From contig JAISUO010000024.1 in assembly GCA_031272035.1 (NCBI GenBank), positions 1 through 64,000 on the forward strand: DNA of 64,000 bases. Reading direction: 5' to 3'. Source of the DNA: Synergistaceae bacterium. GTDB lineage: Bacteria; Synergistota; Synergistia; Synergistales; Aminobacteriaceae. How positions within the stretch are numbered: position 1 is the stretch's first letter; every line of letters begins with the position of its first letter. Shown here in pieces: positions 48,962-55,688 of the stretch. A program made the translations under genes and the position numbers. The notes beneath the pieces are model-generated. The model saw nothing but the letters and a program-made list of their open reading frames with translations. It ran no database searches and was not told where the DNA came from.

Positions 48962-51364
48962 TCAGCCTCTCCGGCGAAGCAGCGCGAGACCCGCCAGAGC
49001 CAGAGCCGCAAAGCCCAGACTCAGGGAGGAGCAGCCGCCGCTGCCGTCCTTCTCCAGACCGCTGCCGCCGCTGGTGGCTCTCGTGGCCACGAAGGTCAGG
49101 CCGGACGTGGGCGCTCTGTACTGAGTGCCGCCGTAGAGGTAATCGATGTAGAACTTGTACGAGCCCGTGGTCGTCGGGGTGAACTCGATCACCACGTTGC
49201 AGGTGCCGTCGGGAAGCGATACCAGGCTGTAGGACGAGGCCGGCAGCGACTGAAGCGCGCTGGACGTCGGGCTTGAGTACACAACCCCCACGAGGGAGAT
49301 CGCCGTACTGCAGGGAATGGTTATCGTGTACGTGCGGCCCACGTTGAAGTTGCTTTCGCCCGTAGTCACATTGTAGAAATAGTGGGCGTCCGTGCCGGTA
49401 ACGCCCGTGTAGACCAGAGCATCCGTCGGGTCGGAAATGACGATGCCCGTGCCCGCGCTGGACAGCACGTTGACCTGGATGGTGGCCGTAATCTTTTTGT
49501 TGGATACCGTTCTGCCCGTCACGGTGAAGGTCTTCAGTCCGGCCGACGTGGGAGTTCCCGAGATGGTGATGACGCTGCCCGAAACCGAGGCGGTCAGGCC
49601 GCTCAGGCTGGTGGGGCTCACCGTCAGCGGCGTGCTCGGGGACAGAACTTCTGACGAACCCGTCGTGATGTCAGCCGACACGGTTTTCGAGTCGTTCTGG
49701 TTCAGTATCATGGTCAAGGTCGCGGGCGTCAGCCGCAGTATGCCCGTGTAGATTCGTTCCGCCGCGGTGACGCGCAAATCCGCCGAGGCCAACTGGTTGT
49801 CCGAGAACGCGCCCACTACGGTCACGGTGTGAAAGCCCTCGAAAGACGGGGTTCCCGACACGGTAACGGTTGGGGTCGTCACGTTCGGCATATTCGTCTG
49901 GTACGTCAGGCCTCCCTGTGACAGGATACCGCCGGTGGCTCCCGCAATGTCAAAACTCACCAGAGTGACCCCGGCTGCTGCACCCACGTCGTAGGTTACG
50001 TTGATTACCTTGGAAGGGCTCACGGCTTCATAGGTATTGAGGTCCAGGCTGTCCGGAGTCAGCGTCAGAGTGTATACCGTCGGAGTAGGCGTGGGAGGGG
50101 TTCCAACTTCGACGTCCAGGACGGCATAGGCCCACAGTCCGTCTCCTGTTGTGGCTACATACGTACTCTGATAAGGGCCGGAGGCGGGCGTCGTGTACAC
50201 GTGGAATCTTACTGTTGTCCCAGCGTACGTTACCAAACCTGTGGAGAGAATGATATCACCCGTACTCGAAATTGTAGCGGTGACTCCATTCACAGTGGCA
50301 TCGGAATCCGGGTTGGTAACACCGATATAGCTGGAATCGTTAGCCCCTGGGTGGAATGAACCTACCGTCATTGCAGGCAGGGGGTCGGGAAAGACGCGGA
50401 TGCCCTCATGTCTGGCGGGATCAATGTTTATACCCAGCGCCGTCGCCAGTGCTCCCGAAGGAGAGACCGTCACCGTCGTCGTACCGGAGCCGCTCGGAGG
50501 AACGTAAAACTTTCCCCCCGACAACGCCGTCGAAGCGAGCGTGATGGCGTAGTCGGTGGACTCCACGATCTTCGCCCCGATCGTCCCGATCTTCAGGGTT
50601 CCTGACGAGCCATCAAGAGGCGCTACCAGAGCTCCGCCGTCCGACACTGTTACACTTGAACCCGTAGCCACAAGATCGAAACTTGTTAGAGCTTGCGACG
50701 CCGTTACGGCCGTTCCATTCGTCAACGTCAAAAGGGGCGTTCCTGTCACTAGTGCGGCAGTTACATCTATACCGCTCCACAAATTCGGGAACGTCGACAC
50801 CTGTGTGGTGTTTCCTGTCTGGCAAAACAGCGGCACTGTACCAACTGTGGCGGCTGGCGTACCTGTCAACAGGTCATACACATAGGAAGCTCCGGCTAAA
50901 TCCGTAACGAACACTGCATCGGTCGTAGCAGGTACCGTCGTGGGATCCAAACCCACGGTGACGGGAACAAAGGTAAGAGTAAGAGTACCATTGTCGCTAT
51001 CTGCAACAAAATCAATGTCCTGAGTTGTTCCACTGCTCGGAAGAGGCACTGTCAGTATACCAGTCTCAGTCGCACTTCCCCATGAACCAGCAGCAGGGAA
51101 AGTATGAGATACAGGAACGGTTGAAATTTCACAGGTAAAAGTAACCGACGGAGCAACAGACGCAGTAATCGACAACGGAACCTTTACGTCGGTGACGCCG
51201 CTCCCTGCCTGATAATAAACATTTGCCGCATTTGCTGCAATGGCCCCCACGTTACCATCCACAGCATAATTAGCGAAACTTAACGCCGCTCCCCAGGCTT
51301 CTCCTCCGCTGAACGCCAGAGCGGCGACCAGCAAAAACAAAATCGAACCACGCAAAAATTTCAT
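48962..51364 (-). CDS. Secreted Ig-like-repeat protein with Synergist-CTERM sorting tail
   Basis: The 800-residue protein has a signal peptide (MKFLRGSILFLLVAALAFSG, cleavage near WGA-ALS). The Thr/Val/Gly/Ser-rich body contains at least two putative Ig-type units ending in VSGTPSFEGFHTVTV and ISGTPTSAGLKTFTV. The tripartite C-terminus is a Gly/Ser-rich stretch with a single Cys (SGGCSSL), a hydrophobic helix (LGFAALALAGLALL) and RRRG. That tail matches the Synergist-CTERM (TIGR04564) architecture, thought to direct processing and surface anchoring. ATG 51364 has GGAGGGAAAAAAGGAG upstream. A large share of the codons encode small or polar residues. The ligand is unknown. Confidence 0.87.
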   Translation of the reverse strand: MKFLRGSILFLLVAALAFSGGEAWGAALSFANYAVDGNVGAIAANAANVYYQAGSGVTDVKVPLSITASVAPSVTFTCEISTVPVSHTFPAAGSWGSATETGILTVPLPSSGTTQDIDFVADSDNGTLTLTFVPVTVGLDPTTVPATTDAVFVTDLAGASYVYDLLTGTPAATVGTVPLFCQTGNTTQVSTFPNLWSGIDVTAALVTGTPLLTLTNGTAVTASQALTSFDLVATGSSVTVSDGGALVAPLDGSSGTLKIGTIGAKIVESTDYAITLASTALSGGKFYVPPSGSGTTTVTVSPSGALATALGINIDPARHEGIRVFPDPLPAMTVGSFHPGANDSSYIGVTNPDSDATVNGVTATISSTGDIILSTGLVTYAGTTVRFHVYTTPASGPYQSTYVATTGDGLWAYAVLDVEVGTPPTPTPTVYTLTLTPDSLDLNTYEAVSPSKVINVTYDVGAAAGVTLVSFDIAGATGGILSQGGLTYQTNMPNVTTPTVTVSGTPSFEGFHTVTVVGAFSDNQLASADLRVTAAERIYTGILRLTPATLTMILNQNDSKTVSADITTGSSEVLSPSTPLTVSPTSLSGLTASVSGSVITISGTPTSAGLKTFTVTGRTVSNKKITATIQVNVLSSAGTGIVISDPTDALVYTGVTGTDAHYFYNVTTGESNFNVGRTYTITIPCSTAISLVGVVYSSPTSSALQSLPASSYSLVSLPDGTCNVVIEFTPTTTGSYKFYIDYLYGGTQYRAPTSGLTFVATRATSGGSGLEKDGSGGCSSLSLGFAALALAGLALLRRRG

Positions 51365-51516
51365 TCTCCTTTTTTCCCTCCTTAATAGGTGCAAACAATT
51401 GCAGCCAAAAGAAAATCTTCGGCTATTTCTTTATCACTGGAGCAAAAAAACAACCTTTACCGTTGAGCTCCGCTGTCTCCTTTCCCGTTTCGGCATGATT
51501 CATTATTATCTTGAAA

Positions 51517-51522
51517 ATTATA
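51517..51522 (-). promoter_or_regulatory. Extended -10 promoter for the Synergist-CTERM gene
   Basis: The minus strand reads TGT-TATAAT, with start near 51510. That gives an unusually long leader of about 145 bases before ATG 51364. No -35 is apparent. Confidence 0.42.
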
Positions 51523-51658
51523 ACATCTTTTCGACCGCCGTATACGGGTCTGAAGTCACGGCAAAGACAGGTCTCTGCCCTTTAAAGAAGCCTCACAGAT
51601 TTGCTGAAAGGAGAACCGGATTTTTTCCGGAGTTGTGACAATGATGGAGGTGGTTCAG

Positions 51659-52021
51659 TTATTTTCCGAAATACTGAAGGGCGACGGGAACCAGAATTGA
51701 AAGGACAATCGCGCCAAAAAGCCATCGGGTCTGGTCATGAAATTCTTTGCGAAAACTTTCGAAAGACGCGTCCACTTTTCCAAAACGCTCATCAATTCTT
51801 TCAAAACGCGCGTCTACTTTTTCAAAACGCGCATCAATTTTGTCGAAACGTCTCAGCACTTCATTTTCAAATCTTTCCTGACCTCTTTTCACGTCCTCAA
51901 TCCGTGAATCCAGGAATCTGATTTCGCTTTCAAACCGCTTTTCGTCCACCGGCGTTATCATAAATCCGCACATTGGCGCCGACGAGGCCGCCATTGTCCT
52001 CTCTGTCTCTTTTTCAGGCAT
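51659..52021 (-). CDS. Coiled-coil protein with C-terminal membrane anchor
   Basis: The 120-residue protein has seven-residue repeats (FDKIDARFEKVDARFERIDE, about residues 59-78) inside a coiled coil from about 28 to 95. One transmembrane helix (LFGAIVLSILVPVALQYF) ends at the C-terminus. The type is common near phage or toxin-like loci and as small membrane scaffolds, but there is no family motif I can name. ATG 52021 has GGGAGGCGG upstream, and an extended -10 promoter sits at 52100. It diverges from the Rpn nuclease gene. Confidence 0.72.
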   Translation of the reverse strand: MPEKETERTMAASSAPMCGFMITPVDEKRFESEIRFLDSRIEDVKRGQERFENEVLRRFDKIDARFEKVDARFERIDERFGKVDASFESFRKEFHDQTRWLFGAIVLSILVPVALQYFGK

Positions 52022-52099
52022 TGTTTTCCGCCTCCCTGACTGCTCCTCCGCTCATATCCGGCCCGAAGCCGGTTTTCCCACATTGTTCACTGCAAAACG

Positions 52100-52105
52100 A
52101 TTATA
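52100..52105 (-). promoter_or_regulatory. Extended -10 promoter for the coiled-coil protein gene
   Basis: The minus strand reads TGT-TATAAT, with a leader of about 70 bases to ATG 52021. It diverges from a TATAAT at 52141-52146. Confidence 0.45.
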
Positions 52106-52140
52106 ACAGCTTCCCTCAACACGAAAAAGCAGCTTTTCGG

Positions 52141-52146
52141 TATAAT
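52141..52146 (+). promoter_or_regulatory. -10 candidate for the Rpn nuclease gene
   Basis: TATAAT lies about 50 bases upstream of ATG 52198, without a clear -35 or extension. Confidence 0.38.
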
Positions 52147-52197
52147 AAAAGAAGCGAGAGAGGGCAAAACAGAAATTTTTAATGGAACAAAACTGCA

Positions 52198-53172
52198 ATG
52201 AGAGACGAGGAAATTCAGGAAATGGAACACGACGCGAAAAACGGTGCGCCGGAGCGTTTTGATTATGACAATCTCTGGAAGACGATACTGCACCATTTTT
52301 TCTGGGAAGCGCTGAAAATTTTTCTGCCCGCTCTGTACGAGGCGGCAGACCGAACGAAAGAACCAGAGTTTCTCGACAAGGAACTACAAAAAGTGACCTT
52401 TGACCTTGAAGGCGGTCCCAACCGGGCGGACCTTCTGACGCGGGTAAAACTCAAAAACGGCGAGGGGGAACTGATTCTCTGCCACACCGAAATCCAGGGC
52501 GAAGGCGGCGGAGACATGCCCGTGAGGATGAACCGCTACCGGCAGATGATTTGCCTCCGATACAGAGAAGAACCGGTGGGAATCGCCGTCATGACGGCCC
52601 CGCGGCCCAGGGGTGAGCAAACGTCCTACCGGTGGGAGCGTTTTGGGGTTAGGGTTCTTTACGAATACATCAATGTGGTGCTCATGGATCTGGAGGACGA
52701 GGCGCTGCTGGAGGAAGAAAATCGAGTCGGGCTTGTTCTCTACGCGGCGAAATGTCTGCAGCAAAGCGGTAACGACGAAGAGAAAAAATTCCGTTATCTG
52801 CGCAGGATCTCGACACTGTGGGCAGAACGCGGATGGAACAGCGACGACAAGCGAATTATTCTGAACGCGGTGAGCTACCTGATGAACCTCAGGGACGAAG
52901 ATTACGCAAAACGCATTGTGGCCCATGTGGAGGTGCTGCAAATGAACCAGGAGGACAGAGAGATGTACGTATCCGTATTTGAAAGAGTCTACACCGCCCG
53001 TGGAAAAGAAGAAGGGCTTCGTGAAGGGGAATTAAAAGGGCTTCAGAAAGGGCTTCGTGAGGGGCGTCTGGAGGTGGCTCAAAATATGCTGCGGGATGGA
53101 ATGCCTGTAGATAAAGTGGTTCAGTATACGCGCCTGTCGAAAGAAAAGGTCGAGACCCTGCTGAACAAATGA
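52198..53172 (+). CDS. Rpn/YhgA-like PD-(D/E)XK nuclease family protein
   Basis: The 324-residue protein has the Rpn-type layout: an N-terminal YDNLWKTILHHFFWEALKIF helix region and an active-site-like ADLLTRVKLKNGEGELILCH-TEIQ strand pair (about residues 77-100). A helical middle follows, and the C-terminal EGLREGELKG-type repeats end in a small helical cap (MPVDKVVQYTRLSKEKVETL). Family members promote recombination and cleave DNA in vitro. ATG 52198 has a weak site; an ATG eight codons later (52222) with AGGA upstream is an alternative. Its last 231 bases are duplicated directly downstream. Confidence 0.78.
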   Translation: MRDEEIQEMEHDAKNGAPERFDYDNLWKTILHHFFWEALKIFLPALYEAADRTKEPEFLDKELQKVTFDLEGGPNRADLLTRVKLKNGEGELILCHTEIQGEGGGDMPVRMNRYRQMICLRYREEPVGIAVMTAPRPRGEQTSYRWERFGVRVLYEYINVVLMDLEDEALLEEENRVGLVLYAAKCLQQSGNDEEKKFRYLRRISTLWAERGWNSDDKRIILNAVSYLMNLRDEDYAKRIVAHVEVLQMNQEDREMYVSVFERVYTARGKEEGLREGELKGLQKGLREGRLEVAQNMLRDGMPVDKVVQYTRLSKEKVETLLNK

Positions 53173-53387
53173 ACCATAAGGACAGAGAGATGTACGTATC
53201 CGTATTCGAAAGAGTCTACACCGCCCGTGGAAAAGAAGAAGGGCTTCGGGAAGGGGAATTGAAAGGGCGTCTGAAGGGGCGTCTGGAGATGGCTCAAAAT
53301 ATGTTGCGGGATGGAGTGCCTGTAGATAAAGTGGTTCAGTATACGCGCCTGTCGAAAGAAAAGGTCGAGACCCTGCTGAACAAATGA
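53169..53387 (+). pseudogene. Duplicated 3' end of the Rpn nuclease gene (72-codon open frame)
   Basis: This frame begins in an ATGA overlap with the full gene. It repeats its last 77 codons almost exactly (DREMYVSVFERVYTARGKEE, then MPVDKVV with M changed to V), with a four-codon deletion in the charged repeat. It lacks the nuclease core, so it is either a fragment or a translated stand-alone C-terminal module. Near identity at silent positions argues for a recent duplication. Confidence 0.8.
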
Positions 53388-53389
53388 AC

Positions 53390-53418
53390 AAAAAACCCGG
53401 TTCTCTTTGAGGACCGGG
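53390..53418 (-). terminator. Intrinsic hairpin between the Rpn fragments
   Basis: CCCGGTTC (53396-53403) pairs with GGACCGGG (53411-53418) with one wobble. On the minus strand it is followed by TTTTTT. It could back up termination of leftward transcripts or be a plus-strand stem after the duplicated frame. Confidence 0.5.
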
Positions 53419-53430
53419 GACAATATTAAT

Positions 53431-53468
53431 GATGAAGATTACGCAAAACGCATTGTGGCCTATGTGAG
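53431..53468 (+). pseudogene. Third Rpn gene fragment
   Basis: GATGAAGATTACGCAAAACG and the following bases match the full gene at about 52893-52930 with three or four differences, then diverge to a stop. In the intact gene this segment lies just upstream of the duplicated tail, so it is the remnant of another copy. Confidence 0.75.
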
Positions 53469-53488
53469 CGGCAGATAAACAACATATC

Positions 53489-53672
53489 AAAAAACCCCAC
53501 AATACCGTGTCCTGAACGTCCTGACCCGTTCCCATTAAATTGAGGCTCGCTCTGCCTCAGTTCAGACGACCACACCGGCCATCATCTCCGACAGGGACGT
53601 TTACCTCCTGGAATCGAGCGTTGGCTCAGGACATTTTCATGATCACGAATACCGCAGGGCTACTTACGTATT
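53489..53672 (-). ncRNA. ssrS: Probable 6S RNA
   Basis: A non-coding minus-strand unit of about 184 nt runs from a TATAAT to a T-run. Its ends pair over about 15 bp (53644-53659 with 53495-53509) with G-U pairs and one bulge. The next helix uses TGTCCTGA (53633-53626) against TCAGGAC. CCTGAGCC on the 5' side recalls the conserved 6S element of that sequence. Size, long rod shape, internal bubble and terminator fit 6S RNA, which binds sigma70 RNA polymerase. SRP RNA and tmRNA signatures are absent. Homology is by eye only. Confidence 0.62.
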
Positions 53673-53678
53673 AAAGCC

Positions 53679-53684
53679 ATTATA
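53679..53684 (-). promoter_or_regulatory. -10 box of the probable 6S RNA
   Basis: A perfect TATAAT on the minus strand places the start near 53672, just outside the closing helix of the RNA. Confidence 0.5.
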
Positions 53685-53742
53685 CACCAAAACTCACCGA
53701 ACGCGAAAAAAATTTTTCCGTGAAACGGCCTGTCCGATGGGT

Positions 53743-54525
53743 CTACAGGAAACGCGCCTCCACTTCTCCGAAGGTCGAAAACTCCACCCGGAACACGTCT
53801 CCCTTTTGCGCGAAGGGCGCGGCGGTGAAAGCTCCGGAGAGAATCACTTCACCCTTTTTCAGGGGAACTCCGAAATCCCACAGGCGGTTGGAAAGCCACG
53901 CAACGGACAGACAGGGATCTCCCATCACCGCCGACCCCGCTCCCTCGGCGATCACCGCGCCGTTTTTCCAGAGTTTCATCGTCACAGCCGCCAGGTCCAT
54001 ATCGCCCAGGGGAATCCTTTTCTTTCCCAGAACGTACCGGCAGGAAGAGGCGTTGTCCGCCACCGTGTCCACCAGTTTGATCTTCCAGTCCTCCACCCGG
54101 CTGTCCACGATCTCGAAGGACCCGACCACGCACTCCGTGGCCTTTCGAACGTCCTCTACGGTAACGCTGCCTCCGGAAAGGTCGGCGTTGAGAATGAAGG
54201 CCAGTTCCGCCTCGATTTTGGGCTGTATCAGCTTGTCGGTGGGAACGTCGCCGCTGGAACAGTCCATCGACGCAAAAAGGTGTCCGTAATCGGGCTCGTG
54301 AACGTTAAGCTGCGCCTGAATGCCGGGAGACGTGAGGCCGATCTTCTTTCCGGTGACGACCTGCCCCTCCCCCACCAACCGCCGCACGTTCTCCAACTGA
54401 ATGGCGTAGGCGTCCTCCACCGTAAGAGAAGCGTCCTGCCGGGACAGCGGCGGGATGACCTTACGGCTCCGCTCCGCCTCGTACAGCGCCGCCGCGAACT
54501 TGATGCGTTTCTTTTCATCTCCCAT
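53743..54525 (-). CDS. 2-keto-4-pentenoate hydratase / fumarylacetoacetase-family hydratase (MhpD-like)
   Basis: The 260-residue protein has the MhpD/TesE-type segments VVTGKKIGLTSPGIQAQL, IQPKIEAELAFIL and SFEIVDSRVEDWKIKLVDTV. The metal ligands (Glu pair in EAEL and the downstream D) are visible. The family hydrates 2-hydroxypenta-2,4-dienoate to 4-hydroxy-2-oxovalerate or decarboxylates related oxo acids. No aldolase or acetaldehyde dehydrogenase is adjacent, so the local substrate is unclear. ATG 54525 (MGDEKK) has GGGAGGG upstream and is preferred to 54546. It lies 35 bases after the decarboxylase beta subunit. Confidence 0.85.
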   Translation of the reverse strand: MGDEKKRIKFAAALYEAERSRKVIPPLSRQDASLTVEDAYAIQLENVRRLVGEGQVVTGKKIGLTSPGIQAQLNVHEPDYGHLFASMDCSSGDVPTDKLIQPKIEAELAFILNADLSGGSVTVEDVRKATECVVGSFEIVDSRVEDWKIKLVDTVADNASSCRYVLGKKRIPLGDMDLAAVTMKLWKNGAVIAEGAGSAVMGDPCLSVAWLSNRLWDFGVPLKKGEVILSGAFTAAPFAQKGDVFRVEFSTFGEVEARFL

Positions 54526-54560
54526 GCTTTTTCCCTCCCGATCCACTGGTTTTATCCGCT

Positions 54561-55688
54561 CTACAGTCCGGCCAGGAAAGCCAGAAGCAAACCTCCCGCC
54601 AACACCGAACCGATCTGCCCTGAGACGTTGGCGCCGATGGCCTGCATCAAAATGAAGTTCTGCTTGTCTTCCCGGGCCGCCATCTTCTGAATCACCCGAG
54701 AGGACATGGGAAAGGCCGAAATCCCCGCAGCTCCGATCATGGGGTTGATCTTGTGTTTCAGGAACAGGTTCAGAACTCTGGCCGTCAAAACTCCCACCGC
54801 CGTATCCAGAATGAAAGCCACGAGCCCCAGCGCCATGATGCCCAGGGTCATCGGCCGTAAAAATTCCTCGCCCGTCATTTTGTTGGCGATGGAAAGACCC
54901 AGGAGAATCGTCACGATGTTCGCCAGCTCGTTTTGAGCGCCCTTCGCCAGACGATCCACCACTCCGCTCTCCCGAAGCAGGTTTCCGAACATCAGGAACC
55001 CGATCAGAGAGGCCGAAGCGGGAACGAGGATTCCGGCCACCAGCGTCACGACAATGGGGAAAAGAATCAAAGCGCGTCGGGAAACCTCCCGTTCGTGGAA
55101 GGTCATGGGGATGCGCCGCTCCGCCGAAGTCGTCAGCAGTCGAATCACGGGAGGCTGAATGATGGGAACCAAAGACATGTAGGAGTAAGCGGCCACCGAT
55201 ATGGAGCCCAGCAGGTTGGGGGCGAAACGGTTGGCCACATAGATCGAAGTCGGCCCGTCCGCCGCGCCGATGATGCCAATGGAAGCGGCTTCCTGAATGG
55301 AAAACCCGAAAAACCAGTAGGCGATGCCCATGGTGAGGAAAATGCCTCCCTGAGCCATCAGGCCGAAGACCATCGCCACAGGCGTCAGAAAAAGCGGGCG
55401 AAAGTCGATCATCGCGCCGATAGCGATGAAGATCAGCAGAGGGAAAAGCTCCGTCTGAATCCCCATATCGAAAAGACGACTGATGGCCCCCACTTCCAGA
55501 TGCCCGCCGGATAACTGAGTCAGAGCCGAGGAAAGAGGAATGTTGACGAGAAGCGTGCCAAAACCCATGGGAAGCAGCAGCGACGGTTCATATTCCTTCG
55601 CCACGGCCAGATAGATCAGCGCCCCTCCCACCAGCAGCATAACCGCCTGCTGCCAGGTCAGAGAAAAAATCCCGTTGAAAAGTTCCAT
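54561..55688 (-). CDS. Na+-translocating decarboxylase beta subunit (OadB/GcdB/MmdB family)
   Basis: The 375-residue membrane protein shows the family's core GIIGAADGPTSIYVANRFAP, the PLLIFIAIGAMIDFRPL helix with its ion-site aspartate and the NPMIGAAGISAFPMSSRV segment. About ten transmembrane helices are present. In complexes it couples biotin-carrier decarboxylation to sodium export. No alpha, gamma or biotin-carrier subunit is nearby, so it acts with subunits encoded elsewhere or alone. ATG 55688 follows GGGAGAGGGG. It is 32 bases after the iron alcohol dehydrogenase gene. Confidence 0.93.
   Translation of the reverse strand: MELFNGIFSLTWQQAVMLLVGGALIYLAVAKEYEPSLLLPMGFGTLLVNIPLSSALTQLSGGHLEVGAISRLFDMGIQTELFPLLIFIAIGAMIDFRPLFLTPVAMVFGLMAQGGIFLTMGIAYWFFGFSIQEAASIGIIGAADGPTSIYVANRFAPNLLGSISVAAYSYMSLVPIIQPPVIRLLTTSAERRIPMTFHEREVSRRALILFPIVVTLVAGILVPASASLIGFLMFGNLLRESGVVDRLAKGAQNELANIVTILLGLSIANKMTGEEFLRPMTLGIMALGLVAFILDTAVGVLTARVLNLFLKHKINPMIGAAGISAFPMSSRVIQKMAAREDKQNFILMQAIGANVSGQIGSVLAGGLLLAFLAGL

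Follow-up and report, generated by a model that had tools for sequence, protein, structure and literature searches.

The closest described systems are the rpn genes of Escherichia coli, whose products are the toxic nuclease RpnL and, through internal initiation, a C-terminal antitoxin, RpnS (Zhong et al. 2023, PMC10327210). The first helix of the three-helix RpnS bundle carries 4-residue repeats, and inhibition of RpnC requires an RpnS of equal repeat number; adding one repeat abolished inhibition (PMC10327210). Separate downstream rpnS genes also occur: ypaA, whose protein has been detected, follows rpnE, and another copy follows rpnC in some strains (PMC10327210). The source of variation in the antitoxin end was left open by Zhong et al. 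(PMC10327210).

We analyzed a 64,000-nucleotide stretch of a Synergistaceae draft genome (contig JAISUO010000024.1; here called the window) that carries a locus of this already known kind, RpnLS with an extra downstream rpnS, in another phylum. Like E. coli rpnE-ypaA and rpnC-rpnCS, it pairs an rpn gene, itself containing an rpnS, with a separate copy of the gene tail downstream, and as in rpnE-ypaA the repeat numbers of gene and copy are unequal. It differs from the E. coli loci in arising by an independent duplication and in overlapping the gene stop directly through ATGA, and its copy is shorter than the gene, whereas K-12 ypaA is longer by one unit. Proteins of the window subfamily are 19 to 25% identical to enterobacterial Rpn proteins. 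Two other loci in the same genome (C90 and C71; L019 and L020) share the layout, each with an rpn gene that keeps the internal start and a tail copy shorter by whole 12-nt units, in both cases by two repeats; these are independent duplications with other end points, C90 being 36% identical to the window gene and C71 similar only in the tail. Further gene/copy pairs were found in a phylum sample of about 140 rpn loci. We consider it likely that the window holds an Rpn toxin-antitoxin gene followed by an out-of-register rpnS copy that is probably translated and able to recombine with the gene.

Architecture and probable origin of the duplicated tail

The features of the locus are as follows.

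52198 to 53172, plus strand: candidate rpnL, a complete gene for an Rpn-family nuclease (324 aa)
52222, plus strand: in-frame ATG, alternative rpnL start
52939 to 52947, plus strand: 9-bp repeat CAAATGAAC, predicted internal end of the duplicated segment and start of the tail/copy alignment
52963 to 53172, plus strand: rpnS predicted within the gene, 69 aa, preceded by the Shine-Dalgarno (SD) sequence AGGAGG at 52949 to 52954
52993 to 53064, plus strand: repeats of 12 nt (4 residues, xxxG) in the gene tail, predicted helix 1 of RpnS
53166 to 53174, plus strand: 9-bp repeat CAAATGAAC, predicted duplication junction, spanning stop and ATG
53169 to 53387, plus strand: candidate second rpnS cistron, 72 aa from ATG 53169, ATGA overlap with the rpn stop
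53190, plus strand: ATG, alternative start of the second rpnS cistron, 65 aa, with SD-like TAAGGA at 53177 to 53182
53381 to 53389, plus strand: 9-bp repeat CAAATGAAC, 3′ end of the tail copy
53390 to 53418, minus strand: hairpin followed by six T (−13.4 kcal/mol, z −2.75), between copy and relic
53431 to 53466, plus strand: putative 36-nt relic of gene segment 52894 to 52929, 34/36 identical

The rpn gene and its ATGA-joined tail copy reported in the first-pass annotation are both present as open frames (52198 to 53172 and 53169 to 53387), and their match is far beyond chance (tblastn E = 2e-35). The last 78 codons of the gene including the stop (52939 to 53172) align with 53166 to 53387 over 222 nt, the two differing by 10 substitutions and one gap of 12 nt, so that the copy, 91% identical to the gene tail at the protein level, is exactly one 4-residue repeat shorter. 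Both ends of the copy coincide with the CAAATGAAC string, which inside the rpn gene spans an in-frame ATG (52942) and at the gene end spans the stop codon. One tandem duplication between these 9-bp repeats would explain the copy and why a further rpnS cistron follows the rpn stop; a single step of this kind yields exactly the ATGA overlap seen.

The same annotation had described a third fragment matching the segment just before the tail, and this piece holds up: in a whole-genome search its only other match is the rpn gene (E = 7e-9). By its sequence it is a real relic, left by an older duplication for which one further duplication followed by deletion would suffice. The proposal of at least three ancestral copies is not needed: the tail copy does not require three full ancestral genes, because CAAATGAAC lies at its ends and because C71 is itself a tail-only duplication abutting the stop. 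An assembly artefact, allowed for in the first-pass annotation, is very improbable, for although the genome lies in 122 contigs and several rpn tails sit at contig ends, the two tails differ by their substitutions and a clean 12-nt unit, and the layout recurs at two more loci of the genome and in complete E. coli genomes.

The surrounding sequence was also inspected. The minus-strand hairpin between copy and relic is likely the terminator of a convergent hydratase-like gene (53743 to 54546); a promoter/terminator consensus scan reported nothing, this hairpin included, and the copy-relic interval contains no Rfam family. Divergent to rpn, the minus strand encodes a small coiled-coil membrane protein (51659 to 52021, 120 aa) with repeats of about 7 residues (KxDARFExx) and only weak, nonspecific family matches. 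Also on the minus strand, a secreted-looking protein of 810 aa (48962 to 51394) ends in a GGSGGCSSLSLGFAALALAGLALLRRRG-type tail, which we take to resemble a Synergistota C-terminal sorting signal.

The putative nuclease gene and its predicted internal start

By its C-terminal part, the window gene is a probable member of the Rpn family (TIGR01784/COG5464) as judged from sequence. The protein matches TIGR01784 with 39.9 bits, below the curated cut-off of 52.1 (E 4e-10, C-terminal part only) and has no Pfam match; rpn paralogues in its own genome exceed the TIGR01784 cut-off. Residues D78, E98, and Q100 are invariant across the own-genome paralogues (24 to 59% identity) and 26 enterobacterial Rpn proteins, the pattern expected of a putative PD-(D/E)XK nuclease (Asp ... 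Glu-x-Gln/Lys). The full-length structure model was too poor for a fold check (pLDDT 57.5). An older annotation of the family as transposase or insertion sequence does not fit the locus, where a search for terminal inverted repeats gave no inverted pairs of at least 20 nt in 51000 to 55000. PADLOC gave only a weak match of the rpn protein to a "putative invertase" model (E 9e-4) and, as to defense-island context, no match for the three downstream genes tested or the upstream small gene. Among 50,697 phage records, no phage-borne tail relatives were found at E ≤ 1e-3.

At residue 256 of the protein (ATG 52963), each of the eight aligned Synergistota relatives has a start codon (two ATG, six GTG). 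In this alignment, the 52963 column has the best mean SD energy of all start-codon columns (−11.6 kcal/mol), and the value for the window itself is −10.3 kcal/mol. The predicted internal start would yield the C-terminal domain, a gene within a gene. Because this start is conserved and strongly signaled, the window gene already appears to hold a matched intragenic rpnS; the earlier account of the gene and its tail frame stands, but it had overlooked this start inside the gene and with it the source of the matched antitoxin. The full frame would thus be translated into a PD-(D/E)XK-type nuclease, RpnL, and start 52963 into a three-helix antitoxin, RpnS.

Predicted fold, probable translation, and constraint of the downstream copy

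AlphaFold models the copy (pLDDT 82) as a long helix (residues 3 to 47) followed by helices at 52 to 59 and 63 to 71, a predicted C-terminal three-helix domain with the 4-residue repeats in helix 1. The top PDB match of the tail model is E. coli RpnA-S (7TH0; probability 1.00, rmsd 0.8, 38 columns), likewise a three-helix bundle with a long, repeat-bearing first helix. The structural E value is 0.31, the domain being very small, and a sequence profile also finds 7TH0 (E 2.5e-11). The first helix of the window tail is longer than that of 7TH0, and the two align only over the 38 columns. We regard the fold match as supportive and not as independent, because the alignment behind the model included enterobacterial tails.

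These features bear on the suggestion that the intact tail frame could be translated as a free C-terminal module, perhaps an inhibitor of the nuclease. A free module is plausible, as modules of this type are separately made antitoxins in the family (PMC10327210), and the copy is probably translated, to judge from the ATGA coupling and a weak start signal of its own (SD energy −5.9 at 53190, with almost none, −3.0, at 53169). Inhibition of the adjacent nuclease is another matter: the copy has one 4-residue unit fewer than the equal-number rule would ask of a cognate antitoxin, a rule shown for one protein, RpnC, outside the Synergistota (PMC10327210), and its inhibition of the window RpnL is therefore doubtful. 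Taken as a whole, the first-pass reading keeps its Rpn gene and intact tail frame and loses its three ancestral genes.

The alternative that survives best, though we judge it unlikely, is that the copy is a neutral by-product: rpn 3′ ends would duplicate easily, their copies would decay, and the one in the window would be functionless. Broken copies do occur in the phylum sample (L078, L279), the 36-nt relic marks decay at the window locus itself, and the SD of the window copy is weakened. The window pair, with 5 synonymous and 6 nonsynonymous differences, is uninformative, since these are too few to show constraint. Against this reading, 9/9 conserved copies are open to a stop, and the SD is wholly kept in the copies at C90, L049, and L083 and in ypaA. 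Pairwise dN/dS summed over eight pairs is 0.28 (pS 0.179, pN 0.055), a value that includes constraint on the gene's own tail; with that caveat, the figure points to constraint on the invariant core of the copies generally.

Repeat number differs in well-conserved pairs of gene and copy

A comparison with relatives, proposed in the first-pass annotation, showed that the layout of gene and tail copy recurs and that gene and copy have repeat regions of unequal length in 11/11 well-conserved Synergistota pairs. The differences amount to −1, −2, −2, +9, −3, −1, −1, +3, +3, and −11 units, and the 11th pair (L334) has a repeat of longer period. Among four more diverged pairs, one (L147) has equal repeat numbers as far as the two sequences can be aligned. 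All nine distinct rpnE/ypaA haplotypes from complete E. coli genomes differ as well, by 1 to 5 units, and a Rahnella pair and an rpnC-type pair are also unequal in repeat length. Few matches are expected by chance (about 0.03 for six E. coli haplotypes and 0.11 for the phylum). These data reject the notion that register between copies and neighbors is maintained; active avoidance of equal repeat numbers is likewise unsupported, because zero matches are also what chance would give (permutation P = 0.84, six E. coli haplotypes). What is new here is that the window copy is offset from its neighbor by one repeat and that such mismatch is general. We did not find gene/copy repeat mismatch noted in the literature within our scope, outside of which lay the supplement of PMC10327210 and most subscription journals.

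The survey yielded several observations in their own right. At L049 (genome G002), the copy has nine more 4-residue repeats than the gene and is otherwise identical over 62/62 residues; judged on these sequences, the difference is an apparently very recent and extreme repeat change. The rpn content of Synergistota is very uneven: matches were found in 81 of 151 genomes, some (G090, G148) with 80 to 93 first-look candidates and others with none. In genome G101 (single contig), three rpn matches (L305, L284, and L129) lie in open frames of 574 to 755 aa, far longer than a usual rpn gene. We set aside candidate free-standing orphan tails elsewhere in the genus, since those inspected were mostly at contig ends.

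The mismatch pattern bears on a further alternative, in which the copy supplies an extra dose of antitoxin. It would then inhibit the adjacent RpnL with full function, and a difference of one repeat would be immaterial in this subfamily. Such a role would account for the open frames and retained RpnS core of the copies, would have a parallel in the YpaA protein made in E. coli (PMC10327210), and would have to tolerate a mismatch of just one unit in the window. One added repeat was nevertheless enough to abolish inhibition of RpnC (PMC10327210), many of the pairs differ by 2 to 11 units, and maintenance of register shows no sign; we consider this alternative improbable, more so than a neutral by-product. 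In the reading that we favor, an out-of-register copy beside a toxin-antitoxin gene, the copy would fold like RpnS yet lack one 4-residue repeat of helix 1. Under the equal-length rule it would be inefficient against the adjacent RpnL, which the matched intragenic RpnS would neutralize instead, and it would endure both as an RpnS with another specificity and as a stretch of DNA able to recombine with the gene tail, which would change toxin and antitoxin ends together.

Probable exchange between gene tails and copies

The rpnE tail of E. coli BL21, which has no downstream copy, is an exact mosaic, its first half identical to K-12 rpnE and its second half identical to K-12 ypaA. Some Escherichia relatives also end in ypaA-type sequence, which leaves the direction of the E. 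coli tail change unsettled. In genome G148, two paralogues (L147 on contig C23 and L158 on contig C10) with nuclease parts 97% identical share two C-terminal modules in opposite arrangement: the one that ends the gene at one locus forms the copy at the other. The modules are each 96 to 97% identical and lie on draft contigs where a misjoin at a common 168-bp repeat could mimic a module swap. At L121, gene tail and copy are the same as far as the repeats, beyond which the copy runs into a different core.

These observations raise the rather doubtful but specific possibility that downstream rpnS copies act as a switching reservoir for specificity. Gene tail and copy would recombine within or beside the 12-nt repeats, and one recombination step would give toxin and intragenic antitoxin alike a changed repeat number and C-terminal core. 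Because both would change in one step, specificity could shift without a moment of mismatch, and the displaced tail would persist as an out-of-register RpnS.

Rpn systems are phage-defense toxin-antitoxin genes, and variation of their antitoxin end is very rapid. The repeat mismatch cautions that homology alone is insufficient to name a downstream copy the antitoxin of its neighbor. Out-of-register, mostly open copies, together with mosaic gene tails, would offer a definite, testable origin for new specificities.
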